This document shows positions 2,339-42,385 of a stretch of DNA of 64,000 nt, piece after piece. The notes under the pieces were generated by a model. It saw only the letters and a program-made list of their open reading frames with translations, searched no databases and had not been told where the DNA came from. Positions within the stretch are counted from its first letter, which is position 1, and the number at the start of each line of letters is the position of its first letter. Source of the stretch: Gelidibacter pelagius. GTDB taxonomy: Bacteria; Bacteroidota; Bacteroidia; Flavobacteriales; Flavobacteriaceae. Location: NCBI RefSeq assembly GCF_017581925.1, contig NZ_JAGEVG010000001.1:186001-250000 (forward strand), given 5' to 3'. Both the position numbers and the translations under genes were made by a program.

Positions 2339-2408
2339 GTTATATAGCGAATTTTGCGTAATTTCAAATCTGTTTTCCATATTTTTATTGAAACTTAAAT
2401 CATTTAAT

Positions 2409-2630
2409 ATGACAACGATAACTGTTAAAAATGGCAGAAAACTATCCAAGACAAATTTTGACTCTTGGGAAGAAGTGCAAGCAGAACTCATATTGATGCA
2501 AGAAGATTTTGAACTTGGTAAAGAACATGCGAAAATCTTAAAAGAGAGAGAAAATGAAGCCGATAATGCAGTTGATGATGGTTATTCTTGGGAAGAGTTG
2601 AAAGCTGACTTTCGAAGAAAAAATGCATAA
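2409..2630 (+). CDS. Small antitoxin-like protein upstream of a ParE/RelE-type toxin
   Basis: A 73-residue acidic protein starting MTTITVKNGRKLSK. The frame is open further upstream, but the ATG at 2409 fits the family's length and leaves a leader after the preceding gene. It has a short beta-like N-terminus (TITVKNG) and then a charged helical part ending in ELKADFRRK, the usual shape of antitoxins whose C-terminus wraps the partner toxin. Its stop overlaps the toxin start by 8 bp, the standard coupling of such modules. Function is inferred from the neighbour and layout; no DNA-binding motif is obvious. Confidence 0.7.
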   Translation: MTTITVKNGRKLSKTNFDSWEEVQAELILMQEDFELGKEHAKILKERENEADNAVDDGYSWEELKADFRRKNA

Positions 2631-2914
2631 ACTTTCATTTAGACCACTTGCCAAAGATGATGTTCAAAGCATTATCGAATACTATGATCTCATCAACCCA
2701 AAACTCACAGAAGCTTTTCTGATCGAACTGGAGGATTCAATAATTCACATTAAAAGTAGACCAGAAGCTTTTCAAAAACGTTTTGGAGGAGATAAGATTG
2801 GTTTCTCTAAAACGCTTTAAATTCGGCGTGTTCTATAAAATGTATGGAGAGAAAATAGTAGTTATAGCTGTCCTTCATACAAGCAGAGATCCAATGATTT
2901 GGAAAAAACGCTGA
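2623..2914 (+). pseudogene. ParE/RelE-family toxin, frameshifted
   Basis: The first 50 or so residues (LSFRPLAKDDVQSIIEYY) are the typical N-terminus of a ParE/RelE-type toxin. The frame ends early at 2820, but the missing C-terminal half continues in the +1 frame to a stop at 2912-2914: a SLKRFKFGVFYKMYG segment followed by VVIAVLHTSRDPMIWKK, the conserved strand and the HxxRdP tail of the family. Removing one A from the run of five at 2774-2778 restores a continuous protein of about 96 residues, the normal family length. It is therefore either an inactivated toxin or a homopolymer sequencing error. The antitoxin upstream is intact. Confidence 0.8.
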
Positions 2915-2927
2915 TCTCTTAAACGGT

Positions 2928-4031
2928 TCAGTCTTGCCATTCTGCAACAAATAAATTGGTGTCATGACCGCCACCATTGTGTCTATTGGAAGAGAACATG
3001 AGTTTTTTGCCATCGTTTGAAAACACAGGGAAGGCATCAAAGGTATCGCTGTGGGTCACACGCTCCAAACCTTTCCCATCAATTCCGATAATATAGAGAT
3101 TGAACGGAAATCCACGTTCTGCTTCAAAATTTGAAGAGAAGAGAACACGTTCGCCATCCGGTAGAAAAAACGGACTCCAATTGGCATTTCCAAGGTTGGT
3201 CAACTGTCTTAAATCGCTGCCATCGGCATTACAGATATACAGTTCCATCTCAGTAGGCTGAACCAAACCTTCTTTGAGCAAGCTTTTGTATTCTGCAATT
3301 TCCTCATCAGTCTTTGGTCGTGACGAACGAAAGATGAGTTTTGACCCATTGGGCGAGAAGAAGGCGCCACCGTCATAACCCAACTCGAAAGTAATCTGTT
3401 TGACATCTGAACCATCAATATTCATGGTGTAGAGATCGAGATCGCCATTTCTGGTGGACGTGAATACAATTTTATCGCCTTGTGGAGAGACCGTAGCTTC
3501 GGCATCATATCCAGGTTCATTGGTCAATTGTGCAGTGATATTCCCTTCTAAATCCGCTACAAAAATGTCATAGGAATCATAGATGGGCCAAATATATTTA
3601 CCATCTTTTTTTAAAGGTGCATCCGGACATGCTTCATCACCTAAATGTGTAGAGGCGTAAACAATATGCTTGTTGTCTGGTAAGAAATAAGCACAAGTTG
3701 TTCTACCTTTTCCAGTACTGATCATAGGTGGTATTTTATCCTCAAAAGTATCGTCAGCGTTCATTAAAAACATCTGGTCGCAATTGACGTTCCAGTTGGG
3801 ATTATTGGACTGAAAGACCAATTGTTTATCGTCAAAACTCCAATACGCTTCCGCATTATCACCTCCAAAAGTGATTTGCTTTAAGGATTTGAAATGCTTT
3901 TCATCTGGAAAAATTAGGGAGTCTGTAGCTGATCTTTCAATATTTTCAACAACTTCAGGACTGGATTTCTTTTCGTCTTTACAAGAGGTAATGACGATGG
4001 ATAGGAATAGAATAATAAATAAGCGATTCAT
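2928..4031 (-). CDS. TolB-like PD40 beta-propeller lipoprotein
   Basis: A 367-residue protein. The start at 4031 was chosen because it gives a clean lipoprotein signal, MNRLFIILFLSIVITSC, with the acylated cysteine at residue 17; the frame is open further upstream without a signal. After the linker it contains repeated PD40 (WD40-like Tol) blades, recognisable as EATVSPQGDKIVFTSTRNGD, FFSPNGSKLIFRSSR, FFLPDGERVLFSSNFE and VFSNDGKKLMFSSNR, forming a TolB-type propeller. The protein is predicted to sit in the outer or inner membrane leaflet facing the periplasm. Such proteins in Bacteroidota often accompany peptidases, and an M28 peptidase is divergently transcribed from the next gene, so a joint role in peptide handling is possible but not shown. 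Confidence 0.85.
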   Translation of the reverse strand: MNRLFIILFLSIVITSCKDEKKSSPEVVENIERSATDSLIFPDEKHFKSLKQITFGGDNAEAYWSFDDKQLVFQSNNPNWNVNCDQMFLMNADDTFEDKIPPMISTGKGRTTCAYFLPDNKHIVYASTHLGDEACPDAPLKKDGKYIWPIYDSYDIFVADLEGNITAQLTNEPGYDAEATVSPQGDKIVFTSTRNGDLDLYTMNIDGSDVKQITFELGYDGGAFFSPNGSKLIFRSSRPKTDEEIAEYKSLLKEGLVQPTEMELYICNADGSDLRQLTNLGNANWSPFFLPDGERVLFSSNFEAERGFPFNLYIIGIDGKGLERVTHSDTFDAFPVFSNDGKKLMFSSNRHNGGGHDTNLFVAEWQD

Positions 4032-4165
4032 AAAATGATTGTTTAAATCTGTGGTTTGAGAATGATCAATTAAATATCCCGCCAAATATCGGGGCTGAAC
4101 CATCAAAACCTAAAATGTTTCATTTTTACAATTTAGGTTTCCATACTAAAACGACAAATAATGTC

Positions 4166-4173
4166 TAATTTTG
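4166..4173 (+). promoter_or_regulatory. Bacteroidota -7 element (TAATTTTG)
   Basis: TAATTTTG matches the TAnnTTTG -7 box of Bacteroidota promoters and lies 22 bp before the start of the M28 peptidase gene. I see no convincing -33 TTG at the right distance, so this rests on the -7 box alone. Confidence 0.4.
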
Positions 4174-4195
4174 TATAAAATTAACATATATAATC

Positions 4196-5422
4196 ATGAA
4201 ATCCATAATAGCACTAATTTTTTTCGTCTTTATCACATCTTGCAAACAAGATACCGTCAAAGAAATCGGCATCAAAGATGATATTGCCATCTTGGCTTCC
4301 GACACTTATGAAGGTCGAGAAACGGGCACAAAAGGTGAGCAGGAAGCCGCCGAGTACATCTCAGAGCGTTTCAAAGCATTGGGATTGCAACCTAAAGGAA
4401 CAGATGGGTATTTTCAGAGGTTTAGTTTTAAACCGAAATCCGATCCACATGGAGAGGTAACTTTTGAAAGCAAAGCTACCGACAGCATGATTACGGGTAC
4501 CAATGTCTTGGGATATATTGATAATAATGCGAAAAACACGATTATTATTGGCGCCCATTATGACCATTTGGGATATGGAGGAGAGGGCTCATTGTACCGT
4601 GAAAAGGATAAAGCCATCCACAATGGCGCTGATGATAATGCCAGCGGCGTAGCGGTAATGCTGAATTTAGTTGCTAAATTGAAAAAGACCAACACCAAAA
4701 ACAATTACTTATTTATGGCCTTTTCGGGAGAAGAGATGGGATTATTGGGAAGTAATTATTTTGTGAAACATCCCACCTTTGATATCAAAACAGCCAATTA
4801 TATGATCAATATGGATATGGTTGGACGCTTAAAAGCCGATAGTACTTTGGCGGTCTATGGGACAGGTACTTCTCCGCGTTTCAAACAAGTCTTGCATGCG
4901 GTAAACAACGGCTTTAAATTGGTTGAAGATGAATCTGGCGTTGGCCCATCTGACCATACGTCGTTTTATTTAAATGATATTCCGGTGCTTCACTTTTTTA
5001 CTGGACAACATGAAGATTACCACAAACCGAGTGACGATGCCGATAAGTTGAATTATGAGGGCATGGAGCTTATTTCAGATTATATTTTTGATGTGATTGC
5101 AGAGCTTGACAATAGCGGAAAATTAGCCTTTAGAAAAACAAAGGACGACAGTGGAGAAATGGCGCGATTTAAAGTGGGCTTAGGCGTGGTACCGGATTAT
5201 TTGTTTGATGGAAAAGGCATGCGGATTGATGGGCTGAGGGAAGATACACCCGCCTCAAGAGCAGGATTGTTAAAAGGTGATGTGGTGATTAAATTGGGCG
5301 ACAGCACAATTACCGACATTTATGGCTATATGCGAGCACTTTCAGTTTTTGAGGAAGGCGATCAGACCAAAGTCATTGTGGATAGGAATGGCGAAAAAAT
5401 TGAAGCGGATTTGGAGTTTTAG
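4196..5422 (+). CDS. M28-family zinc aminopeptidase with C-terminal PDZ domain, lipoprotein
   Basis: A 408-residue protein with a lipoprotein signal (MKSIIALIFFVFITSC, Cys16). The M28 catalytic domain shows all expected zinc and catalytic residues: H121 in IIGAHYDHLG, D146 in NGADDNASG, the E179-E180 pair in AFSGEEMG, D207 in INMDMVG and H276 in DYHKPSDD. A PDZ domain follows at about 325-408 (DGLREDTPASRAGLLKGDVV). The family hydrolyses N-terminal residues from peptides; the lipid anchor places it in the periplasm or on the cell surface. The architecture, M28 followed by PDZ, is common in Flavobacteriaceae. It is monocistronic here and divergent from the PD40 lipoprotein gene. Confidence 0.92.
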   Translation: MKSIIALIFFVFITSCKQDTVKEIGIKDDIAILASDTYEGRETGTKGEQEAAEYISERFKALGLQPKGTDGYFQRFSFKPKSDPHGEVTFESKATDSMITGTNVLGYIDNNAKNTIIIGAHYDHLGYGGEGSLYREKDKAIHNGADDNASGVAVMLNLVAKLKKTNTKNNYLFMAFSGEEMGLLGSNYFVKHPTFDIKTANYMINMDMVGRLKADSTLAVYGTGTSPRFKQVLHAVNNGFKLVEDESGVGPSDHTSFYLNDIPVLHFFTGQHEDYHKPSDDADKLNYEGMELISDYIFDVIAELDNSGKLAFRKTKDDSGEMARFKVGLGVVPDYLFDGKGMRIDGLREDTPASRAGLLKGDVVIKLGDSTITDIYGYMRALSVFEEGDQTKVIVDRNGEKIEADLEF

Positions 5423-30655: not shown

Positions 30656-33600
30656 ATGCCAAAAGGAAAAATAATCCTGAAATATGACAAATTGGGTTAT
30701 ATTGAATACGATGTAGATTATAGGGTGTCATATTTGGTCGAGGATTATTTAGACTTCAGTATAGGTGAGAAGGTAGACTTTGATCTCATAAAAACTCGTG
30801 TTCCTGGTACGGAAAATACTTTTAATCGAGCAATTAATTTAAGGTCGATAGAACATAAGAGTGGTTTAGTAGAAAGTGATTCTACCAACGGGGAGATAGT
30901 TAAATCCCGTGCTATTGTTGGGGAAAGAGGTTCAATCATAAACACCAAAGTCATTGAAATTCTAAAGCCTTCTGCAATAATATTAGAGTTTTTCGATGAA
31001 AGAATAGCCATACTACCGTTGCAAAACATTTCTTGGAGTCTTCCGAGTTCTGAAAAACGTTTTAAGAAGTATAAAGTTGGAGACAGGACTGACATAGTGG
31101 TCTTGGAGAACGAACCAAATAAACCAGCTATAGTAAGCAGAAAGCATTTAGATCCTAGACCTAGCGAAGCAAAAGTATGGCAGGATTTAAAAGTTGGTAA
31201 TACTATAAAAGGAACTATTGTTCAGGTTCTAAATACAGAAGTGGTATTTAGTTTTCCTAGTGATCTTTACGGGACTGCATCAATTTCTAAAGACTTTTCC
31301 AATAAGATAGGTGACCAGATGGAAGTTCAAGTGCTTTCGAAATCTGTAGATAGATTTTTACTTAGTACTACTTTTTCTTTCGAGCCTGAAAGGTCAGAAA
31401 TCAAAACTACCCAGAAATTTAATGATGATTCTCTTTTAAAACCAGAAATCACGTATGAACATGGAGATGAATCTTTAAAAGACCAGGACTCTTTTTTTAA
31501 TTCTCTGTATTACGATTTTTGCGAAGAGAGTGAGTCTAATAACGAGAAAAAGTTTTTCCAGGAGGCATTTGCGGAGAATCATAATTTGTTTGATTTAGCA
31601 ATTTCATTAAAATTGCCACTATACATCCAATTTACTTCTACGAGCTGGGAAGGAGACTTCAAGACAAAACTATTACCATATTTATCCAGTCTTTTTTCGG
31701 AGATTGACTCTGAGAAAGAAGCGATTGATTACCTAGTTGAACAGAAGTATTGGATTAATATTAATTCCTCTAAAGACGATAGGCACTTTTGGACATTATT
31801 CAATGATGAGTTATACATTTCGGGTTTTGTTACAGAAGAGCCAGATGAACATTTCTTTTTTGTAACTAAACTGGAGATAGGTAGAAAAAATAAGGATTCA
31901 TCATACTATAAAGAGAAATCACAAAAGAATGGGTGCTTTTTGTTTGAATCTCAAATATTATTTTTAGGTCTTCAATCTAATAGGCCAATAGATAAACCTT
32001 TCGAGAGATTATTCGATTTATTAAAAACAAAATCTGAAGCATTTTTGCTTTACGGAGAGCTTAAAAAGAGAGCTGGTGCGATTTTAATGGAAGAGGGTGA
32101 GTCCTTGAAGATTTTTGATAAATTTTTAGAGTTTCAAATTTTTACAGAAAAGGAAAAGAATAAGCAGAAAGCAATTTGGATTTCAGGACAAATTTCAAAA
32201 ATTCCTGCAATTGATTGTGAAGCATCTATCGAAATATTAGCTACTGAATCTTTAAAGGATATCTACGAGGCAAGTGAGTTTGAAAAAATATTAGTGTCAA
32301 TAAAGACTTCTACGGGTTCCTTGAAAGAGAAGAAGGATGGAAATGAGCTTGTGTGGTTCTATGATGCTGAATTTGAAATTGTGGATAATATTGCTCGTTT
32401 TCATTTTTCCGAGATGGATAAAAGTATTGAAGACTTAGAAAGTGGATTTTATGTAGAGCCTAAAGTTTCACTTAAGCAGTGGCTGGTACAACGAAAGGTT
32501 ATACAGGACTTTTTTGATAAACGTATTAATATTTCTCATATTGAGACAATGTTTTTGAAGCCAGATAAAATTGAAGCTCCGAGAATGGAGTCGTTTAATT
32601 TCAGTAATCCATTGCTGAATAAAGCCCGAATAGAAACTCCTGATAACAATCAAGTAAAATCAGTTATCAAAGCCGTTGGAAATAAAAATATATTCTTAAT
32701 TCAAGGCCCCCCGGGAACTGGAAAGACGACTGTGATTGCTGAAATTGTTCAACAATTAACGAATAAAGGAGAAAAAGTATTAGTTACAAGTCAAACTCAT
32801 ATTGCAGTAGACAATGTTTTAGATAAATTATCAAGTTTAAGTCATTTGACTTTAGTTAGATTCGGAAATAAAAAAAGAATTATGTCTGGATTAGAGGGTT
32901 TTCATATTGATAATCAAGTTGATTCTTTAGCAATGTATTATGGAAGTGTAGTCGAAAATAATATTAAGCTTGTTTTAAAGAATATAGAATGTATCGATTT
33001 ATCAGACGAAGAAATAACTAAAATTTTATTAGAGCATATAAATAATTTATCGGTTTATTATCCATCAAATTTTAAAAAGAGACTTACAGAGTTAAATAAA
33101 GATTTTATATCAGCACTCAAAGGTCTAGATATTGACCGATTAAGAGATTTAATTAATGTTCTAAAGAGTTGGCAAAATGAGATAGCTTTAGGTCTTGAAG
33201 ATATTGCACGTCCAATAATTTATGATTCAATGAATGTTGGTTTTGCTACTTGTATTGGTGTTCGTATAGACAAAGGCTTATCGGATAGAGACATAAAATT
33301 TGATACTGTTATAATTGATGAAGCTGGTAAAGCAAATTTATCTGAATCTATTGCAGCGGTTTCTATGGCGAAAAAAGTAATTCTAGTTGGAGATCATATG
33401 CAACTTCCTCCATATATAGATAGTACTTTAATTAACCCTAAAGATAAAGACAGCTTTCCAAATAGCGTTAGATTTAATAGAAGTAAATTTGACCAAGAAG
33501 CAATAAATCATGCATTAACAACTTCTTTATTTGAGTACTTAGTAAATAAGAATAAAGCTAATTTATTTCCGTCCACTAATATTGAATTACTGAATTTCCA

Positions 33601-34780
33601 GCATAGAATGCACCCAGATATCGGAGAGTTTGTATCTAAAGTATTTTATGATAGTAATATCCAAATGGGGGCATCAACTTCAAATAATACATTGCCTTTA
33701 TCTTTTCCTTTTGATAAACAAGTAATATTTATTGATACAGCCAATAGTAAAACGCCATATGAATCAAAAGAGGGTATATCTTATAAGAATGATATCGAAG
33801 CCCTCTGTATATCGGAAATAGTAATTCCAAAGCTATTTGAAGAAAAAGTAGACAAAGACAGGTTTGCTGTGATAGCTCCATATAAAGCCCAAGTAGCCAA
33901 CATAATTGATAAATTAAAAAAGAGTAATATAGGCGGTGTTGAAGTTTCAACTTTAGACTCCTTTCAAGGAATGGAATTTGACATTATCATATTTAGCTTT
34001 ACCAGGTCACAAAGGTCAAGTAAAGTAGGCTTTTTAGATGATGCACGTAGGTTAAATGTGGCGCTTTCAAGAGCAAAAAAGAAATTAATACTTGTAGGTA
34101 ATAGTAAGACTTTAATGGATTGGAGAAGTCATTTTGATGAATTATTCAACTATACTAAAATGTATAGAAATCTTGTGAAACTCAGTAAGAATGAGGAAAA
34201 AGGAAACTTCATAGATATTAATAATCTTTCAGGCGTAAGTCCTTTTGAAAAGGCTCAGAGGATTCTAAATATAGGAGCAAAATATTCTTGTATTTACAAG
34301 AACAGTATAGATTCTAAGGGAGGAAGTGTAATTCACTTTTTCAATGTAGATGGTTTAATTGATGGTAGTTTATATGATTATGAAGGAACAAAATCATTCA
34401 TAAAAGGCGAGGAAACTATGCTTTTGATAAAAGATTTAGATTCAAAATCAGAAAGGGTATATCTAAAGGAAAATTCAGGAAATTTTAAAAAGAAAATTCA
34501 GAATAGCTCATATAAAAAAACGAGAGATTCTCAACTCAGAACAAAAGCGTTTCAATTGAAGTTTTTTCTTGAAAAAAAGGTTGGGGATAAAGTAATGTGT
34601 CGCTATAAAAATTACACAGAAAATCTTGGTCATTTTTTTATTATTTATAATGGTTTTGATGGACTTCTTTATGATCCAAATAATAAAGAAAAGAGTTATA
34701 TAAATGACATTGAATATGAGATGATTATCCATAGTATAGATAAGTCTAAACGACAAGTTTCTCTAAAAAGCAAAAAATAA
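30656..34780 (+). CDS. Upf1-like SF1 helicase flanked by S1-like domains
   Basis: A 1374-residue protein. The N-terminal 260 or so residues contain up to three S1/OB-like repeats (YIEYDVDYRVSYLVEDYLDF, INTKVIEILKPSAIILEF, GTIVQVLNTEVVFSFPSD). After a spacer of about 400 residues comes the SF1B helicase core: Walker A FLIQGPPGTGKTTVIAEI (about 685), Ia VTSQTHIAVDNVLDKL, Walker B IIDEAGKANLSES (about 887), motif III GDHMQLPPYI, QHRMHPDIGEF, and motifs V-VI STLDSFQGMEFD and NVALSRAKKKL. Another S1-like domain follows at about 1190-1260 and a further beta-rich part to the end. The S1 domains suggest RNA or single-strand binding. It is the first of five closely packed genes ending in a Card1-like nuclease. 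Confidence 0.85.
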   Translation: MPKGKIILKYDKLGYIEYDVDYRVSYLVEDYLDFSIGEKVDFDLIKTRVPGTENTFNRAINLRSIEHKSGLVESDSTNGEIVKSRAIVGERGSIINTKVIEILKPSAIILEFFDERIAILPLQNISWSLPSSEKRFKKYKVGDRTDIVVLENEPNKPAIVSRKHLDPRPSEAKVWQDLKVGNTIKGTIVQVLNTEVVFSFPSDLYGTASISKDFSNKIGDQMEVQVLSKSVDRFLLSTTFSFEPERSEIKTTQKFNDDSLLKPEITYEHGDESLKDQDSFFNSLYYDFCEESESNNEKKFFQEAFAENHNLFDLAISLKLPLYIQFTSTSWEGDFKTKLLPYLSSLFSEIDSEKEAIDYLVEQKYWININSSKDDRHFWTLFNDELYISGFVTEEPDEHFFFVTKLEIGRKNKDSSYYKEKSQKNGCFLFESQILFLGLQSNRPIDKPFERLFDLLKTKSEAFLLYGELKKRAGAILMEEGESLKIFDKFLEFQIFTEKEKNKQKAIWISGQISKIPAIDCEASIEILATESLKDIYEASEFEKILVSIKTSTGSLKEKKDGNELVWFYDAEFEIVDNIARFHFSEMDKSIEDLESGFYVEPKVSLKQWLVQRKVIQDFFDKRINISHIETMFLKPDKIEAPRMESFNFSNPLLNKARIETPDNNQVKSVIKAVGNKNIFLIQGPPGTGKTTVIAEIVQQLTNKGEKVLVTSQTHIAVDNVLDKLSSLSHLTLVRFGNKKRIMSGLEGFHIDNQVDSLAMYYGSVVENNIKLVLKNIECIDLSDEEITKILLEHINNLSVYYPSNFKKRLTELNKDFISALKGLDIDRLRDLINVLKSWQNEIALGLEDIARPIIYDSMNVGFATCIGVRIDKGLSDRDIKFDTVIIDEAGKANLSESIAAVSMAKKVILVGDHMQLPPYIDSTLINPKDKDSFPNSVRFNRSKFDQEAINHALTTSLFEYLVNKNKANLFPSTNIELLNFQHRMHPDIGEFVSKVFYDSNIQMGASTSNNTLPLSFPFDKQVIFIDTANSKTPYESKEGISYKNDIEALCISEIVIPKLFEEKVDKDRFAVIAPYKAQVANIIDKLKKSNIGGVEVSTLDSFQGMEFDIIIFSFTRSQRSSKVGFLDDARRLNVALSRAKKKLILVGNSKTLMDWRSHFDELFNYTKMYRNLVKLSKNEEKGNFIDINNLSGVSPFEKAQRILNIGAKYSCIYKNSIDSKGGSVIHFFNVDGLIDGSLYDYEGTKSFIKGEETMLLIKDLDSKSERVYLKENSGNFKKKIQNSSYKKTRDSQLRTKAFQLKFFLEKKVGDKVMCRYKNYTENLGHFFIIYNGFDGLLYDPNNKEKSYINDIEYEMIIHSIDKSKRQVSLKSKK

Positions 34781-34782
34781 CG

Positions 34783-36102
34783 ATGGCAAACTATAGACTA
34801 GACATAGCGCGTTTTATTGATTTAGAATCTGAAGCTAATAATAACTTAAAAGCAGTTGTAAGTATTCAATATCCTATTTATTATATCCATACTGAGATAG
34901 TTGACACTAAACCTCATATTCTTTATGGATTAGATAAAGTAGTTTTAAATAGTTCTAAAATCTATCGATCTTTTAATGATGATGACATAGCCAAGTTACT
35001 TTCTTTACCGTCTTCTGTCATTTCCAGCAGAAAAAGCTATATGCATAAAAATGAATATATAGATAAAGACGATGTGTTAACTAATTTAGGTCTGAACTAT
35101 ATTAATATCGAGGAAGAGAAAATGGAACATCATGTCTCTCAAGATTTTATTATTGATGGGATAAGCCTTAAACCACTTCCTAAAGAGCTTTATGGTATTA
35201 AATATAAAGAAGAATATATTTTTGAGAGTGATTATAATCACTTCACAAACAAGAATGGAGAGACTGTTTCCAATAGACCATTTTCTCCAGACTTAACTCA
35301 TCAGCCTATTCAAAGGCAGATTATCGAAAAAAATCTTTTAGACGTGCAGATAAATGAACGAGGCGACTATAATATTCCTTTAGGGTTAAAAACATTATCT
35401 TCTCTTACTTACAGCGTATGCACCTTACCTGTTTTTATTGGTTTGTTTGAAAATAACGGTGTTTTAAAACGTAAGTTAATTAACGGTTTTGATTCTTTAG
35501 GAAAAGATGATCACCTCACCGTATTTCTTCCAAATTTAGAAAAGAGAATTAAGAATTTAGAACTTAGATTAGATGAACGAAATTCGAGAGACGGTAGTAC
35601 TCAATATAATTTTGAATCGAATTGGAGAGAAATAGATTTAATAAGAGATGAGGATAGATTGTTTCTTTTTTCTAAAGAAGACTTAAAAGGTTTCTTTTGT
35701 AAGCAATATCAAATTGAAGACTTAGAACTAACAGATGTTAATCGTGAGTCAAATTCTATTGGATTAAAAGTTACCAAGGAAGTATTTCAAAAAACAAAGT
35801 TAAAAAAGAAACTTCTTGAAAATATAAAACGAGGTACAGATTATTTTTTAAAAAACAAAATAACATCCGGCGTTTGGATCATATTCTTTGATTTCATTGC
35901 TGACGATGATTTTATAAAAGATGCTGTTGAGCTTTCTATCCTTGTCGATGATTTAACTAGCAAACGCTTTCCTGAAGAAAAAATACTGCTTAAGATTATG
36001 GCTTATAATAATCATAGACATATTTTAGTTGCATTAGAAGAATACAGATTATTGGAAGAAATAGATATATCTAATCATATGTTAAACCTAAAAAATGAAT
36101 AA
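34783..36102 (+). CDS. Unknown 439-residue protein of the helicase/CARF operon
   Basis: The gene starts 2 bp after the helicase stop and its end overlaps the PLD-gene start by 8 bp, so it is translationally linked to both. Residues about 50-105 (SKIYRSFNDDDIAKLLSLPS, then SSRKSYMHKNEYIDKDD, then LGLNYI) have the pattern of a winged helix. The middle has several strands, and the C-terminal part is a mixed alpha/beta domain (GVWIIFFDFIADDDFI, MAYNNHRHILVALEEY). I recognise no family and see no catalytic signature. It could be a DNA-binding or adaptor component of the system. Confidence 0.6.
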   Translation: MANYRLDIARFIDLESEANNNLKAVVSIQYPIYYIHTEIVDTKPHILYGLDKVVLNSSKIYRSFNDDDIAKLLSLPSSVISSRKSYMHKNEYIDKDDVLTNLGLNYINIEEEKMEHHVSQDFIIDGISLKPLPKELYGIKYKEEYIFESDYNHFTNKNGETVSNRPFSPDLTHQPIQRQIIEKNLLDVQINERGDYNIPLGLKTLSSLTYSVCTLPVFIGLFENNGVLKRKLINGFDSLGKDDHLTVFLPNLEKRIKNLELRLDERNSRDGSTQYNFESNWREIDLIRDEDRLFLFSKEDLKGFFCKQYQIEDLELTDVNRESNSIGLKVTKEVFQKTKLKKKLLENIKRGTDYFLKNKITSGVWIIFFDFIADDDFIKDAVELSILVDDLTSKRFPEEKILLKIMAYNNHRHILVALEEYRLLEEIDISNHMLNLKNE

Positions 36103-37516
36103 CAGCTTAATAGATAAAGAGATTTTTGAAGGGGGTTATTTTGTCTTGAATGATAATAGAACACAAGCTAAATTAGGAGAGTACCCTAACTTATTATTCA
36201 CACTTGATGGATATCCTCAAATTAAAAACCATATAATTAAACTTATAAGAAGTTCAGTTAAAGTAATTAAACTGTGTTCTTTTATAATTAGTGATGAGGA
36301 AATTGCTTTTGAGTTATTAGAGAAATGCAAGAATACAGATGTGGCTGTTTTTTTACTTACTCAACTAGATGATAAAAAATTCAATTTTGACTTTTTACCT
36401 GAAGAAGTATCTTCTAGACAAGGTAAAGAGCATATGTCAATTATTACAAGGCTTTATGGTCTTGGTGCACACGTGAGAGCGGCAACTTCGGCACATGCAA
36501 AGTTTATTGTTTGCGATAATTGTGACGCACTACTTATGAGTGCGAATATTACATCTCCATCTTTAAATACGAATCCAGAAACAGGTGTTATTCTCAAAAA
36601 AGAGAAAGGCTATAGAGAGTTAGATAAGCTTTTTGATATTCTTTTTCAAAAAGGAACAGAGTATGTCGGTTTTACAACATCAGGAAAAAAGCAACTAATC
36701 TCATCGCGTTCTACACATATTACAGAAGAAATACTCGAATTAATTGATGAATCAAGCATAAAATTCACTTGGGAAAACTTAAACAACTCTTTGTACGAAA
36801 GCATTGTTCAATTGATTAAAGAGGCTAAATCCGATATTTTTATTTCAACGTATTCTGTTGTAGGATTAGATGAAATTTCTGAATTTGTAGAAGAGCTCAG
36901 AAAGGCTAACAATAGAGGCCTTGCAATAAAACTATTTTGTAGAGCAATGAATCATAGAAAGGATCATTTAGAAAGTTGTTTGAAATTAAAGCAAATCGGA
37001 ATCGAGATTTATGGAGATTACTTTAATCACTCAAAAGGTATTTATTCAGGAGACAAAGGCATTTTGTTTACGGCAAATATTGATGGTAATCACGGTCTAA
37101 TAAATGGTTTTGAGGTTGGCGCAATAATACAGGAGAACCAGCTTACTGACTTTAAGAATTTTGTAGAATGGCAAATTGAAACGGCACCTTTCTATTTTAC
37201 TATTAATCCTTCTAAGCAAACATATTATGATATGTATGATGTTTATGCAGGATTTAAAAACATCGAAAAACCTAGTTTTCCTTCGAGCTGTATAATCTAT
37301 ACCGATATTGAGATTAAAGATGAGGTTTTTAAAAATCCTATATATTTATTAACTGATGAGGATAAAAATGTTTTGAAAATGAGAATTTCAGATATCGAGT
37401 ACGACGTGGAAATGGAGAGAAGTAATATTAATGTTATTAATAAATCAAAAAATAAAAGTTACAATATGCAATCTTACTTACTAAAGTATAAAGAAATAGA
37501 TGTAGTAAACAATTAA
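36095..37516 (+). CDS. Phospholipase-D-family (HKD) protein, likely nuclease
   Basis: A 473-residue protein with two HKD motifs. The first is H134-A-K136 with D141 and the following SAN in AHAKFIVCDNCDALLMSAN; the second is H312-S-K314 in NHSKGIYSGD, with D320 and a TANIDG loop. Two motifs in one chain form the usual PLD catalytic centre. In defense operons PLD proteins act as metal-independent nucleases (for example DrmC of DISARM), though the family also includes lipases. The gene overlaps its upstream neighbour by 8 bp and abuts the CARF gene with no gap. There is no signal peptide, so it acts in the cytoplasm. Confidence 0.8.
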   Translation: MNNSLIDKEIFEGGYFVLNDNRTQAKLGEYPNLLFTLDGYPQIKNHIIKLIRSSVKVIKLCSFIISDEEIAFELLEKCKNTDVAVFLLTQLDDKKFNFDFLPEEVSSRQGKEHMSIITRLYGLGAHVRAATSAHAKFIVCDNCDALLMSANITSPSLNTNPETGVILKKEKGYRELDKLFDILFQKGTEYVGFTTSGKKQLISSRSTHITEEILELIDESSIKFTWENLNNSLYESIVQLIKEAKSDIFISTYSVVGLDEISEFVEELRKANNRGLAIKLFCRAMNHRKDHLESCLKLKQIGIEIYGDYFNHSKGIYSGDKGILFTANIDGNHGLINGFEVGAIIQENQLTDFKNFVEWQIETAPFYFTINPSKQTYYDMYDVYAGFKNIEKPSFPSSCIIYTDIEIKDEVFKNPIYLLTDEDKNVLKMRISDIEYDVEMERSNINVINKSKNKSYNMQSYLLKYKEIDVVNN

Positions 37517-38095
37517 ATGGAAAACACACTTAAATATCTAGAAGAATGGCGTGATTTGGCAAGCCAGGGTAATTTTAAATTGGCTGAAAATTTATACTAT
37601 GAGAAATTATTTCCCGAGGTAATTTCTATTTTTTGCGATAAATACCAATCTGAGTTTTCAGAAAGTGGAGTCTTAATATCATTACTAGGCTTTTCTCCTG
37701 AGCCGCTTATATTAACTGCTAGAGCGGTTAAACCAGCTCATCATTATATTTTGACTACGGAGATTCGAGAGGATATTCTTGATCGCATCCACCAGCATCT
37801 GGATGATGATTTTGAGCTTATTATAGTTGATTCTCCGGATTTTCAATCTATTTACAAATCGTTGAAAGAAATCTTGTATAAAGTAAATACGACAAATATT
37901 ACTCTTGACATAACAGGAGGCAAAAAATCTATGGTTGCCTCAGCCGCCATTTTTGGGAAAGACTATAGATTTAGAATCACATATGTTGATTTTGAAGAGT
38001 ACATAAAAGAACTCCGTAAACCGCTACCAGGATCCGAGATATTAAAGACTGTATATAATCCTGACGTAGACCAACCAGAAATATTTTTAAAGTAA
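37517..38095 (+). CDS. Single-domain CARF-like protein
   Basis: A 192-residue protein. After a helical N-terminus (WRDLASQGNFKLAENLYYEK) it has a Rossmann-like strand SLLGFSPEPLILTARAVKP and, at 129-142, LDITGGKKSMVASA, the TGGKK loop typical of ligand binding in CARF domains of the DUF1887/Card1 group. No effector domain is attached. It lies directly before a full CARF-nuclease gene (TAATG overlap), so the two may form a heteromeric sensor or one may act as ring-nuclease or decoy. The start abuts the PLD stop. Confidence 0.6.
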   Translation: MENTLKYLEEWRDLASQGNFKLAENLYYEKLFPEVISIFCDKYQSEFSESGVLISLLGFSPEPLILTARAVKPAHHYILTTEIREDILDRIHQHLDDDFELIIVDSPDFQSIYKSLKEILYKVNTTNITLDITGGKKSMVASAAIFGKDYRFRITYVDFEEYIKELRKPLPGSEILKTVYNPDVDQPEIFLK

Positions 38096-39189
38096 TGACG
38101 CATCAAATTGTTTTATTAGGAGGTCAACTTCTACCTGTATATCTTGGTGTGCTTGAAAGGAAACCGAAAGTTGTTCATATTCTTTATACGAAAGAGACAG
38201 TTAGACATAAAACTCGTTTAGTTAGATTGTTTGAAGGTGTTCGGATATTTGACTATCAAATTGATCCTTATGACTATGACTCAATTCAAGAAACAGTTAC
38301 TGATATAATTTGTAATTATGAGGGTGTTGATTTTGAATTAAACTTAACCAGTGGAACCAAGTTAATGGCATTGGCCAGTCAACAGGTTTTTAAGAGTTTA
38401 GACTGTTTTAGTTTTTATGTTGATCAAAAGCAAAATATTATCGATTTATCCGATGGTTCCAAAACCAAAATAAGTTCCTTAATTTCGACTAAAATGTTTC
38501 TTTCCTTATCTGATCATAATAATTTCACCTCATCTACTTTGAAAGCATTTAATGAAGAAGAGATGAAATTGGCAAACTCAATATTAGAGTTAAGGAAGGA
38601 TAAGTCTGGGATAGGTGAATTATTCAAGTTATTTAGATCCTTGAGAATAGATTCTGAGTTGAGGAATTTTTCTTTCTCTAATTCAAAATATGAAATCTCT
38701 TGGAGATCTAATATCCTTTGTGTAAAAGCACCAAGATTTAGCCTCAATGCTGAGGGGAAAAATTCCTTTAAGATTTTGACAACTGGGTTATGGTGGGAAC
38801 TAATTATAGGTATGGCTATCAGTAAATGGAAATCGGCTGTGGACGTACATATGAGTCTGGCTATTAAGTCAAATAAGGATGCGAATATGGACAAAAATGA
38901 AATAGATATTCTTGTTAATACAGGTCACAATGTTTTTTTTATTGAGTGTAAATCAGGTATTGTAACTCAATCAGATTTAAATAAAATTAGAACTGTTAGT
39001 AAACTTTATGGCGGTCTTAGTTCAAAATCAATACTTGCTTCATTTTTTAAACCGAAGGATCATCTTTTAGAAAAATGTCAGGATTTAGGTATAGAGGTAT
39101 TTTGCTTGAACGGAGATTCAAATATTCCTGTTGAGCTGAATTCAATTTCAAAAAGTTTGGATCGATTATTAAGTCGAGTTGAGTTATAG
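38095..39189 (+). CDS. CARF-PD-(D/E)xK nuclease, Card1/Can2-like (DUF1887 type)
   Basis: A 364-residue protein. The CARF half has QIVLLGGQLLPVYLGVLERK at the N-terminus and the loop LNLTSGTKLMALASQQVF (82-99). The C-terminal half is a PD-(D/E)xK nuclease with an early E235 in GLWWELIIGM, an acidic E269/D271 in NEIDILVNTG and E284-x-K286 in FFIECKSG. This is the architecture of Card1/Can2, which degrades nucleic acid after binding cyclic tetra-adenylate in type III CRISPR immunity. Here no cas gene is near, so the ligand is unknown. It is the last gene of the five-gene operon; McrBC begins 131 bp later. Confidence 0.75.
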   Translation: MTHQIVLLGGQLLPVYLGVLERKPKVVHILYTKETVRHKTRLVRLFEGVRIFDYQIDPYDYDSIQETVTDIICNYEGVDFELNLTSGTKLMALASQQVFKSLDCFSFYVDQKQNIIDLSDGSKTKISSLISTKMFLSLSDHNNFTSSTLKAFNEEEMKLANSILELRKDKSGIGELFKLFRSLRIDSELRNFSFSNSKYEISWRSNILCVKAPRFSLNAEGKNSFKILTTGLWWELIIGMAISKWKSAVDVHMSLAIKSNKDANMDKNEIDILVNTGHNVFFIECKSGIVTQSDLNKIRTVSKLYGGLSSKSILASFFKPKDHLLEKCQDLGIEVFCLNGDSNIPVELNSISKSLDRLLSRVEL

Positions 39190-39320: not shown

Positions 39321-40982
39321 ATGAATAATCGACTGGCAACAATATATACATATTTAGTAGATAATAGAAAACATGAACTAACAGCTTGGCATAATGAATA
39401 TAGAGAATTTACAACGGACGTTCAGAGGATAAGAACAGCTTTAGAGTCAGGTAAAAAACTTCGTGATAGCTCTACATATGCTGATACCATTTTCGGTAAA
39501 GAGGAATCTCCTTTTGATGCTTTTATTAAAAAGCTACTTTACGACCAATCTAATGGCATTTCGTCTCGAGGCCAGTCAGTGCTTAGTGAGAATTATCTGC
39601 AGAAGTTTAAAGATTCTGTTAGTTTTGATGAGGTTATTGAAGACCTTATTCTTGATCCAAATTCCGAGACATATCAAAAGCTAAAGGACTTCTGGTCATC
39701 CACAAAAGAAAGTAAAAATCCTGTATTAGTTAATAGGGCAATTGCGGCATGCACTTTAACTGTAACTAGTACTGTTGATGAGGGTAAATTTAATCAAGTA
39801 TATAGATGGCTCGAAGATCAAGAATTGGTCGAACCTTATCCTCAAAATGCTCCCTTCGATTGGTTTAGCAGGAGTCAGTTTGTAATGGAGCATCTTAAAA
39901 GCAGTTTAAGCAATGTTGCAAAAGTTGATGATTATTGGATTAGTCTGTTTTATTGGGAGATGTATACAAATCTTTCAAATCCATTTAGTCTAAAAAAACA
40001 AATTGTAAAGTATGGGGCTCCAGGAACTGGTAAGACCTATAAGGCTAAAGAAACATGTAAGCTACAATTCAGAATTTGGAAAAACAACTATCCTGAGTTG
40101 ACTGACATAACTATTGATGACGTCATTGAGACAGTTCAATTTCATCCCTCATATTCTTATGAAGATTTTATAGAAGGACTACGTCCAAATTTGGAAGGAA
40201 AACTGACCTTAGAGAATGGTATTTTCAAGAACATATGTATCGAGGCGGGGAAATGGGAGGTTGATATGGCTAAAATTGATGTAGAATTTGAATTTCATAA
40301 AGCAACTGTGAGCGATATTATACCTTATAGAGAAAAACTCTCTGGAGATTACTGGGAATTTATATTTTCTGAGAATCCAAATAAAAAATTGATTGACGTA
40401 GTGCCTCCATATTTTATTGTAATCGATGAGATAAATCGAGCCGAGATCAGTCGAGTCTTTGGAGAATTAATGTATTGTTTGGAGTATCGAGGGGTTGCAG
40501 GTAAATTAAAAACACAGTATGCTCAATTAAATTCTGAGCATTCAGGTATGATTAAACTTGGAAATGGTTATCAGTTTTTTGTTCCGAATAACCTTTATAT
40601 TATTGCAACCATGAATACAATAGATCGTAGTGTAGAAAGCTTTGATTTCGCCTTACGTAGAAGGTTTAGATGGGAAGAGGTAATACCTGATACTCAGCTA
40701 TTAAAATATCATTTAGAAGAATACAATAAGAAATGGGTCGACTTGTCTAAAAGCTTAAAAGCACTAAATGATGCAATTGAGAATGAGCCTTTGCTTGGCA
40801 AAGACTATTGTATTGGTCATGCCTATTTTTGGGAACTTCCTTATGCTGAAGATTTATCATTATCGGAGGTTAAGAAAACAATTTGGAATGATAGCTTATG
40901 TTCTCTACTTGAAGAATATTTAAGAGGTACAGGTCGCAATGATATTATGTCAACATTGTCAAGTAGCTTTGGAATTAGATAA
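39321..40982 (+). CDS. mcrB: McrB-type AAA+ GTPase motor of a modification-dependent restriction system
   Basis: A 553-residue protein with a unique N-terminal domain of about 220 residues, which in this family reads the modified DNA, then the McrB motor: Walker A GAPGTGKTYKAK (about 233), QFHPSYSYEDFIEGLRP, Walker B IVIDEINRAEISRVFGEL (about 367), and the GTPase signature ATMNTIDRSVESFDFALRRR (about 430). It moves DNA and activates McrC when methylated or otherwise modified bases are met. It overlaps mcrC by one base. The N-domain is not the one of E. coli McrB as far as I can tell, so the recognised modification is not known. Confidence 0.9.
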   Translation: MNNRLATIYTYLVDNRKHELTAWHNEYREFTTDVQRIRTALESGKKLRDSSTYADTIFGKEESPFDAFIKKLLYDQSNGISSRGQSVLSENYLQKFKDSVSFDEVIEDLILDPNSETYQKLKDFWSSTKESKNPVLVNRAIAACTLTVTSTVDEGKFNQVYRWLEDQELVEPYPQNAPFDWFSRSQFVMEHLKSSLSNVAKVDDYWISLFYWEMYTNLSNPFSLKKQIVKYGAPGTGKTYKAKETCKLQFRIWKNNYPELTDITIDDVIETVQFHPSYSYEDFIEGLRPNLEGKLTLENGIFKNICIEAGKWEVDMAKIDVEFEFHKATVSDIIPYREKLSGDYWEFIFSENPNKKLIDVVPPYFIVIDEINRAEISRVFGELMYCLEYRGVAGKLKTQYAQLNSEHSGMIKLGNGYQFFVPNNLYIIATMNTIDRSVESFDFALRRRFRWEEVIPDTQLLKYHLEEYNKKWVDLSKSLKALNDAIENEPLLGKDYCIGHAYFWELPYAEDLSLSEVKKTIWNDSLCSLLEEYLRGTGRNDIMSTLSSSFGIR

Positions 40983-42385
40983 TGCAGGATTGGCTATTTA
41001 ATATACTGCACAATAATACACTTGTTGATAATCAACGATACGAAGTCTTAGATGCAATTTTTACCAATCAGAGGTTATTTAAACCTATTCGATTAAATAA
41101 AAAAAGTAGGGGACAATGGACCAATAAATGGAATAACGAAGACTCTATATGGCAATTTTTGAATACTGTCAATTCAGAAGTGAATTCTGCTATTAAGGGT
41201 AATAAGGAGACGTCAATTATTCTATTTAATAATAAGGAATATGAGCATAACACAGATGATGATTTCATTAATGTACAAGGCATAAATATTAATCAATTTA
41301 CCTTAACCACAGGTAATTTGATTGGGTTTGTTAAACAAGGTGATAATAGCTTAAAGATTTCTTCGCGCTTCGGAGATAGCTTTTTAAGACAAATCATATC
41401 TGATGCAGATGGCTTTGTTGAGGCCGATAATCTGGGTGGAACTTCAGGCTATGAAGGTTTTGAATGGTTATTGGTTTATTTATGGAAGACAAAGCTTAAA
41501 AAGGCGTTTCGTTTAGGATTGCCCAAGCAATATATTAACAAGAAGAGTCGATTAAATAAAGTCAAAGGTCAATTAGATTCATTAGACTATTACATGTCCA
41601 GAGATGGTAAATATCTATGTAATTATCGTGAGCATAGCTATAATAATAGGGCTGCACAATTGATACTTGAGGTGTTTAATCAAAAGAAAGGTAGTCCGTT
41701 TTTGGAAGATTTGAATTCTGTTAAAAATGCTTTTGTTTCTGCAACAGAGGGAAAGAGGTCAACCCTTCGAGACTTAATAAATACTCCATATTTCTCTAAT
41801 CCATTTTATAGTGATTACAATGATGTAATTGATCTGTCCAAACTTCTAATTAAACAACAATCAACAGAATTTGGTAATGCCGAAAATAACAATGCTTTCT
41901 TTTTTGATGTGTCCATGTTATTTGAATATTTCATTCGAAAACTTCTAATTCGCAAGAAGTTTCATGTCAACAGTAAGTTTGATAAACGATTACAAATACC
42001 TACAGGAAATATAGATTTTAAAAGAAAACTTGAACCCGATATCATAATCGATAGTGATAAAGGGAGATTTGTATTTGATGTGAAATACAAGTCATTTGAT
42101 TTTAGGTATGGGGCTAATCGAGAGGATCTTTTTCAATTACATACTTATGTTGGTCAATTTGGTAACAAACAAAAGATAGGCGGTTGCGGGTTTATATACC
42201 CAATTTTAGAAGATAGACTTAAAACTGCTGATTCCGTAATTACAGAATACATGAGTGTAATGGGAAAGGAAATACCTTTTTATGTTATTTTTTTGGTCAT
42301 TCCTCCTTCTGAGAAAGATTATAGTATCCTATTTAAAAGAAGTAGTTCTTCTTTTATAGATCAAATGAGTAAAATTATTTTTTAA
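40982..42385 (+). CDS. mcrC: McrC-type nuclease subunit
   Basis: A 467-residue protein with the McrC N-terminal beta region (LTTGNLIGFVKQGDNSLKIS) that contacts McrB, a helical middle (LPKQYINKKSRLNKVKGQLD), and a C-terminal PD-(D/E)xK nuclease, LEPDIIIDSDKGRFVFDVKYK, with the catalytic D, D and K. It cleaves DNA when driven by McrB. The TAATG overlap with mcrB shows one operon. It probably complements the type I system by attacking modified phage DNA. Confidence 0.9.
   Translation: MQDWLFNILHNNTLVDNQRYEVLDAIFTNQRLFKPIRLNKKSRGQWTNKWNNEDSIWQFLNTVNSEVNSAIKGNKETSIILFNNKEYEHNTDDDFINVQGININQFTLTTGNLIGFVKQGDNSLKISSRFGDSFLRQIISDADGFVEADNLGGTSGYEGFEWLLVYLWKTKLKKAFRLGLPKQYINKKSRLNKVKGQLDSLDYYMSRDGKYLCNYREHSYNNRAAQLILEVFNQKKGSPFLEDLNSVKNAFVSATEGKRSTLRDLINTPYFSNPFYSDYNDVIDLSKLLIKQQSTEFGNAENNNAFFFDVSMLFEYFIRKLLIRKKFHVNSKFDKRLQIPTGNIDFKRKLEPDIIIDSDKGRFVFDVKYKSFDFRYGANREDLFQLHTYVGQFGNKQKIGGCGFIYPILEDRLKTADSVITEYMSVMGKEIPFYVIFLVIPPSEKDYSILFKRSSSSFIDQMSKIIF

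Follow-up and report, generated by a model that had tools for sequence, protein, structure and literature searches.

The window analysed here, a stretch of 64,000 nucleotides from Gelidibacter pelagius (contig NZ_JAGEVG010000001.1, positions 186,001 to 250,000), carries five plus-strand open reading frames (ORFs) packed at window positions 30656-39189. Their intergenic distances are +2, -8, 0 and -1, just as an original prediction, made from the letters of the DNA, had placed and spaced them. Gene 1 (30656..34780, 1374 aa) encodes an Upf1-like helicase of superfamily 1 (SF1) with S1, resembling MkoA of the Mokosh system (PF13087/PF13086 and the PADLOC MkoA model). It is followed by gene 2 (34783..36102, 439 aa), the least conserved member of the cassette, whose product has an unassigned fold with an embedded winged helix. 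The product of gene 3 (36095..37516, 473 aa) is a double-HKD protein of the PLD superfamily, with PF13091 matched in two stretches. Gene 4 (37517..38095, 192 aa), the most conserved of the five, encodes a Csm6-type CARF domain standing alone without HEPN, as found by profile and Foldseek comparison, and gene 5 (38095..39189, 364 aa) joins CARF to a PD-(D/E)xK domain of the Can2/Card1 type, recognized by PADLOC and PF09002.

These genes form a real, recurrent, stand-alone cassette. Thirteen cassette loci were found in 12 Bacteroidota genomes, and all 12 loci with a sufficiently long contig carried the five genes in identical order, so that the five genes are indeed one unit, as had been claimed; the recurrence of this order elsewhere excludes a chance association. 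The contig of the 13th locus (L032) ends after gene 2. Across the complete cassettes, neighbouring genes were spaced by -25 to +6 when the first possible starts were taken, and gene 4 overlapped gene 5 by 1 or 4 bases in 12/12 loci. When a sample of the phylum was searched with gene 2, it was present in one of 395 genomes, namely the window's own, and there in two copies, the second belonging to another complete five-gene cassette (L003, 8211-17117 of contig C57) whose gene 2 is 32% identical. A same-family sample gave strong full-length matches in three of 397 genomes (the own genome, G467 and G713), and the loci of G467 and G713 were both complete cassettes; the other 14 of the 17 matched genomes were dropped, their matches being weak and partial (E 1.4e-4 to 9.3e-4) and several having stops. 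When genome_contigs, covering 84,980 species, was scanned with a four-row gene 2 alignment, 69 pattern stretches were obtained, 11 of which were confirmed. They correspond to 10 distinct loci, with L025 taken as the G467 locus again on its identical scores, and this figure is a lower bound because the pattern scan was strict.

Judged by record titles, the complete loci come from genera of Flavobacteriaceae, from Pedobacter, from Sphingobacteriales and from Roseivirga, in the orders Flavobacteriales, Sphingobacteriales and Cytophagales, and the cut-off locus lies on a contig titled Bacteroidales; lineages were looked up for three names (Roseivirga, Pedobacter and Ulvibacter). In the family sample, relatives of gene 4 (3/397 genomes at E <= 1e-6) and of gene 5 (3/339 genomes at E <= 1e-10) were confined to cassette carriers and to cassette positions. 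Gene 2 had zero matches in plasmids and phages, and no confirmed match was obtained in viral contigs with gene 2 alone or with the gene 5 alignment. One contig filed as viral, IMGVR_UViG_3300024996_000127 (L033, L054), was matched by both the gene 2 and the gene 4 alignments; it was not counted and its label is doubtful, because the 21 kb compared (L033) are identical to a Flavobacteriia metagenome-assembled contig (L028).

The known makers of CARF and related signals were then sought in 11 host genomes, a set outside which the host of L024 lies. The palm domain of Cas10 (PF22335, palm2) was found in none of them, with positive controls in 5/14, and mCpol was found in none either, the latter being a weaker test because a single control of 14 was positive and none exceeded the cut-off. 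Csm1 (TIGR02578) was over its cut-off in 0/11, with two weak sub-threshold N-terminal matches in G780 and G781. A CD-NTase of the SMODS family was detected in three of the 11 and Cas1 in five, neither being present in the own genome. The cassette was therefore rejected as an accessory module of type III CRISPR (no Cas10 palm domain in 11/11, no Csm1 over the cut-off), as an mCpol system (0/11 hosts) and as CBASS, since SMODS is absent from the own genome and occurs in only 3/11 hosts. To the question, raised with the original prediction, of whether the genes keep together and apart from type III loci, the answer was that all five stand together in 12/12 untruncated loci and that the Cas10 palm domain occurs in 0/11 host genomes.

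Gene 5 is, on its sequence, a nuclease of the Can2/Card1 type, with an N-terminal CARF domain followed by a PD-(D/E)xK domain bearing E-x-D and E-x-K, and activation by cyclic tetra-adenylate (cA4) is predicted. The nuclease domain (aa 228-336, 38776..39102; PF09002) matched Card1_endonuc at 5.7e-9, and the residues E235, E269, D271, E284 and K286, already pointed out as intact in the window copy, were invariant in 10/10 aligned proteins. Its match to the PADLOC model CARF4--CARF_PDDEXK reached 3.6e-101, and the nearest solved relatives were 8bao (5.6e-56), SthCan2 (7bdv, 3.9e-26) and Card1 (9.5e-14). The first of these is titled Dysgonamonadaceae CRISPR ancillary nuclease 2, and a literature search on structure 8BAO found no relevant paper. 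E269-x-D271 aligned with E276/D278 of SthCan2, whose double change gives an inactive enzyme (PMC7969007). More distant relatives of gene 5 were found on plasmids (15 records, 22.7-25.4% identity).

For gene 4, the top profile match was Csm6 of Thermus thermophilus (TtCsm6, 1.2e-14), and the AlphaFold2 (AF2) model (predicted local distance difference test, pLDDT, 89.5) matched TtCsm6 8jbb in Foldseek at 2.7e-14. The protein was thus rightly described as a stand-alone CARF with a TGGKK loop: the model has the CARF fold, TGGKK is invariant in 10 aligned rows, as is the whole CARF motif II region (aa 131-141, 37907..37939), no HEPN family was matched, and the 192-aa protein ends behind the CARF domain. 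Csx1_HEPN was absent from the own genome (0/1). According to PMC10897365, the ligand and motif residues of TtCsm6 are G58, T59, S60, T81, E83, T133, G135, K137, Y161, N164, Y167, R172, R173 and E179; an N164A mutant binds cA4 with cleavage lost, and K137A loses binding. Present in gene 4 are G58, S60, T81, T133, G135, K137, Y161, Y167, R172 and E179, which in its own numbering are G58, S60, T81, T133, G135, K137, Y156, Y162, R167 and E174, identical in all 12 distinct proteins together with K168 in place of R173. The replacements are T59 by F (Y in one) and N164 by F in all 12 distinct proteins, and E83 is variable. Identity in the window copy was found at 10/14 named residues versus 42/151 other aligned columns (Fisher p 0.0016), and the 12-residue set without G58 and E83 gave 9/12 versus 43/153 (p 0.0017).

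Because a residue on which cA4 cleavage depends has been replaced and the binding residues are mostly kept, we infer that gene 4 encodes a cA4-type sensor whose ring-nuclease activity would be weak or nil. The CARF ligand is probably cA4-like, since the retention of most reported cA4-contact residues of Csm6 favours cA4 or a close oligoadenylate over an unrelated ligand. Kinship with ring nucleases was weak (Crn1 at E 6e-4, 19.6 bits against a cut-off of 125; SSO2081 at 8.1e-4). All 13 plasmid records with gene 4 relatives (27.8-32.8% identity) were from Thermus/Meiothermus and mostly annotated Csm6, and in the one such region that was read the relative lies beside Cas6.

The five genes have not evolved alike. 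Mean pairwise identity over the 12 cassettes was 45% for gene 1, 39% for gene 2, 45% for gene 3, 61% for gene 4 and 41% for gene 5; the fast gene 2 would suit a subunit that faces the invader, and the slow gene 4 a sensor of small molecules. Identity matrices correlated at 0.915-0.974 among genes 1-4 and at 0.583-0.671 between gene 5 and genes 1-4. In a first approximately unbiased (AU) test with whole gene trees, the gene 5 tree was rejected by every other gene and all other trees were rejected by gene 5; this test was superseded by constrained searches on account of uneven likelihoods for similar topologies. In the constrained searches, a clade of the window copy, L021, L003 and L024 was rejected by genes 1-4 (p-AU 0.0034, 0.00078, 1.0e-6 and 0.0071), and a clade of L003, L022, L023 and L024 was rejected by gene 5 (p-AU 9.2e-7). 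Between L024 and L023, gene 4 is 94% shared and gene 5 41%, with divergence along the whole of gene 5. Since its tree conflicts with the clade kept by genes 1-4, gene 5 appears to have been exchanged between cassettes, and it looks like an exchangeable effector, gene 4 being part of the core.

The helicase assignment of gene 1 held up well (PF13087 1.6e-51, PF13086 8.6e-38), its SF1 core spanning aa 663-1151 (32642..34108; PF13086 at 663-923, PF13087 at 955-1151), and the PADLOC model MkoA (PDLC03920) was matched at 5.1e-115. The L031 protein matched MkoA at 3.7e-123 over 831 residues (profile 314-1102). Among the 12 cassettes, fixed patterns for helicase motifs I, II and VI were matched in 12 each, that for motif III in nine and that for motif V in six. 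The claim of several S1-like domains is right for the family and only partly so for the window copy: relatives have clear repeats (four S1 stretches in L003; three and two in the C-terminal pieces of L031 and L030, respectively), whereas the window protein has one S1 domain over the cut-off (aa 92-162, 30929..31141; PF00575 23.4 bits, cut-off 22), and its C-terminal piece (34160-34777) matched no Pfam family. Neither N-terminal piece (aa 1-340, aa 341-665) showed a kinase domain, and none stood among the best 25 of 51 families matched by the whole protein.

No family model of Pfam, PADLOC or NCBIfam scored above its cut-off with gene 2. The winged-helix-like segment proposed for it was recovered at aa 46-95 (34918..35067), which matched AsnC/Lrp-type and other helix-turn-helix chains (best E 0.0011). 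Its AF2 model (pLDDT 84.2) had no Foldseek match in the PDB at E <= 0.001, and most of the 50 listed rows were winged-helix proteins over ~50-80 columns. The input alignments for the AF2 models held 11/13 distinct gene 2 and 10/12 distinct gene 4 proteins, L003 and L021 being excluded. A cyclase role of gene 2, whose fold is unassigned, was considered and is not supported, there being no nucleotidyltransferase or palm match in the profiles or in the listed fold rows. Gene 3 is a double-HKD protein as predicted (PF13091 2.4e-21 in two stretches), the trailing D being conserved only in the first motif: H134-x-K136, D141 and N151 (36494..36547) and H312-x-K314 and N328 (37028..37078) were invariant in 10/10 aligned proteins. 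PADLOC matched it better to DrmC (1.4e-16) than to MkoB (1.5e-6), and the closest solved chain is named virion nicking-joining enzyme (3.5e-8).

On one side the window copy is flanked by a divergent type I restriction system (PADLOC HsdM 6.3e-195, HsdS 6.4e-99) whose 1011-aa neighbour we take, from its position, to be HsdR. Downstream, at a distance of 131 bp and on the same strand, lies a presumably McrBC-like pair (39321-42385), the first protein of which had restriction-enzyme matches in PADLOC and the second none; its distance and its lack of a match to any flank gene of the other copies led us to reject it as part of the cassette. In the flanks of L003, L031 and L032 there are genes that match either each other or type I restriction genes; type I restriction genes were likewise rejected as cassette members, being near several copies but not others. 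L003 presumably has an HsdR-like gene on one side and a short remnant resembling HsdS on the other, and mobilisation-like genes lie close by. The pair common to the L022 and L023 flanks is assumed to be PglZ and BrxL of BREX, and the mutually matching flank genes of L028, L030 and L031 are taken as recombinases. In L021, a PP2C phosphatase gene (3293-4000; PF13672 7.1e-17) ends 1 bp ahead of the cassette helicase. In L022, TOTE-type conflict genes (962-4679; S1CSD-TOTE, TBP-TOTE, DUF7017) adjoin the cassette. When the flank ORFs, reaching at most ~7 kb beyond most cassettes, were compared all against all, no gene was common to every locus, so the cassette seems to travel alone. No cas gene was recognized on reading the flank ORFs, no search with cas models being made.

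Parts of the cassette recall known systems. Type I Mokosh comprises the helicase MkoA and the PLD protein MkoB (PMC11672841). The cassette likewise has a helicase and a separate PLD gene, and gene 1 fits the MkoA profile; unlike Mokosh, it has no detected serine-threonine kinase domain in gene 1, its PLD protein is closer to DrmC than to MkoB, and it carries gene 2 and the CARF pair in addition. With type III effectors it shares a Can2/Card1-like nuclease whose active-site residues are intact and a gene 4 resembling the Csm6 CARF. It differs from them in its hosts, which lack the Cas10 palm domain (11/11), in the lack of the Csm6 HEPN RNase from gene 4, and in the constant linkage to helicase, gene 2 and PLD within one operon.

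The DISARM helicase is unlike the Upf1-like SF1 helicase of the cassette. The likeness to DISARM lies in the combination of a helicase with a PLD gene that PADLOC matched best to DrmC, and gene 2 differs in having no DUF1998/DrmB match in Pfam or PADLOC. CARF nucleases near non-CRISPR Upf1-like helicases have been noticed before, since compound type III-A CoCoNuTs combine a 2xCARF D-ExK protein with the Upf1-like helicase CnuH (PMC11090510). The cassette shares with them a CARF-PD-(D/E)xK nuclease and an Upf1-like helicase outside CRISPR, but in none of the 12 loci do its five genes comprise a VWA, a kinase or a McrB/McrC homologue, such as the coiled-coil proteins CnuB/CnuC that accompany CnuH in CoCoNuT types II and III, its two CARF domains are in separate genes, and PLD and gene 2 are present. 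Around gene 5 relatives on three proteobacterial plasmids (L055, L056 and L057, all read; AAA_11/AAA_12 tested in L055 and L056) lie VWA, an AAA/FtsK-type ATPase, a longer CARF nuclease, a VWA/hypothetical protein, PP2C, a kinase and an AAA_11/AAA_12 helicase. This layout resembles that of compound type III-A, and PP2C also stands beside the L021 cassette. The pairing of a CARF nuclease with an Upf1-like helicase is thus known; different here are the Mokosh-like helicase, the PLD protein, gene 2 and the two separate CARF genes. PADLOC model names such as CARF1 and CARF4 suggest that single CARF proteins are already catalogued, and no description of the cassette was found in the literature searched, which covered few subscription papers.

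A function in defence is likely, given the restriction genes beside several copies and the kinship with Mokosh, Can2 and Csm6. The original prediction of a self-contained module is upheld by the recurrence and by the lack of a Cas10 palm domain in the 11 hosts searched. We give even chances to a stand-alone immune cassette that unites a Mokosh-like detector, a CARF sensor and an exchangeable nuclease. Its detector arm would consist of the S1 Upf1-like helicase, winged-helix gene 2 and the PLD nuclease in a Mokosh-like complex, which may engage foreign RNA or single-stranded DNA. Gene 4 would accommodate cA4, or an oligoadenylate close to it, in a pocket of the Csm6 type, acting presumably more as a sensor than as a ring nuclease, and the same ligand would switch on gene 5, which by analogy with Can2 biochemistry may cut DNA and/or RNA and so stop the infection or the cell. 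Genes 1-4 would be the core and gene 5, as its tree suggests, the exchangeable effector. In the hosts searched, Cas10 and mCpol would not be the source of the ligand, and in most of them a CD-NTase would not be either.

Several points weigh against such a cassette. No candidate cA4 source was found in the searched hosts, a serious gap, and completeness was stated for two of the 11 searched genomes (G000 and G713). The enrichment of contact residues is weaker among columns invariant in gene 4 (9/11 versus 21/47, p 0.043), and S60, K137 and Y156 are kept, leaving room for ring-nuclease activity. The trees of genes 1-4 differ in other branches, with several pairings among them rejected in the whole-tree AU test, and the movement of gene 5 without gene 4 would speak against a tightly co-evolved pair. 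In addition, L027 lies among what we take to be metabolic genes.

Alternatively, the CARF arm may sense RNA damage instead of a dedicated second messenger, its pockets being filled by linear oligoadenylates or RNA ends with 2',3'-cyclic phosphate from RNA cut during infection. Linear A4>P activates Csm6 (PMC10897365), Cas10 and mCpol were found in 0/11 hosts and an S1 helicase suits RNA; we regard this as possible yet doubtful, since gene 4 matches Csm6 and the RtcR family is absent among its matches. Moreover, no PLD enzyme is known to leave 2',3'-cyclic phosphates. The cassette might instead borrow a cyclic oligonucleotide, from a CBASS synthase or from a type III CRISPR system that is plasmid-borne or escaped assembly, as the SMODS-family CD-NTase in 3/11 hosts and the few stated completeness values would allow. 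Borrowing is nevertheless very unlikely: eight of the 11 hosts had no match to Cas10 palm2, mCpol or SMODS, among them the own genome, which is 99.99% complete and has two cassettes, and reading of the flank ORFs, with no cas models searched, recognized no cas gene.

Gene 4 could also be a brake, a ring nuclease that clears the ligand and holds gene 5 off, making genes 4 and 5 antitoxin-toxin-like. The weak Crn1 and SSO2081 kinship, the retained S60, K137 and Y156 and the gene 4/5 overlap in 12/12 loci speak for it; with the TtCsm6 cleavage residue N164 changed to F in all 12 distinct proteins, and gene 5 exchanged without gene 4, we hold it to be unlikely. That the cassette serves no defence at all and is a regulator of RNA damage or stress, in which helicase and PLD would repair nucleic acids, would agree with the winged helix of gene 2 and with the Upf1-like and S1 domains common in RNA metabolism. 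We consider this extremely improbable in view of the patchy distribution, the restriction genes beside several copies and the exchange of the nuclease gene.

For the immune cassette proposed here, it is also conceivable, though quite unlikely, that the core of genes 1-3 produces the CARF ligand on its own, with no nucleotidyl cyclase involved, for example if the PLD protein, whose closest solved chain bears the name of a nicking-joining enzyme, cut and rejoined short stretches of oligo(A) RNA fed by the helicase into a cyclic or cyclic-phosphate oligoadenylate. If true, second-messenger immunity would have one more route besides Cas10/mCpol and CD-NTases. CARF nucleases are understood mostly through the cyclic oligoadenylate made by Cas10, and a cassette residing in hosts that mostly lack a known signal maker suggests that immune nucleases of bacteria can be activated in a manner not yet described. 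It offers a way to test what is sensed by CARF proteins outside CRISPR, and how helicase-PLD machines of the Mokosh type act after detection.

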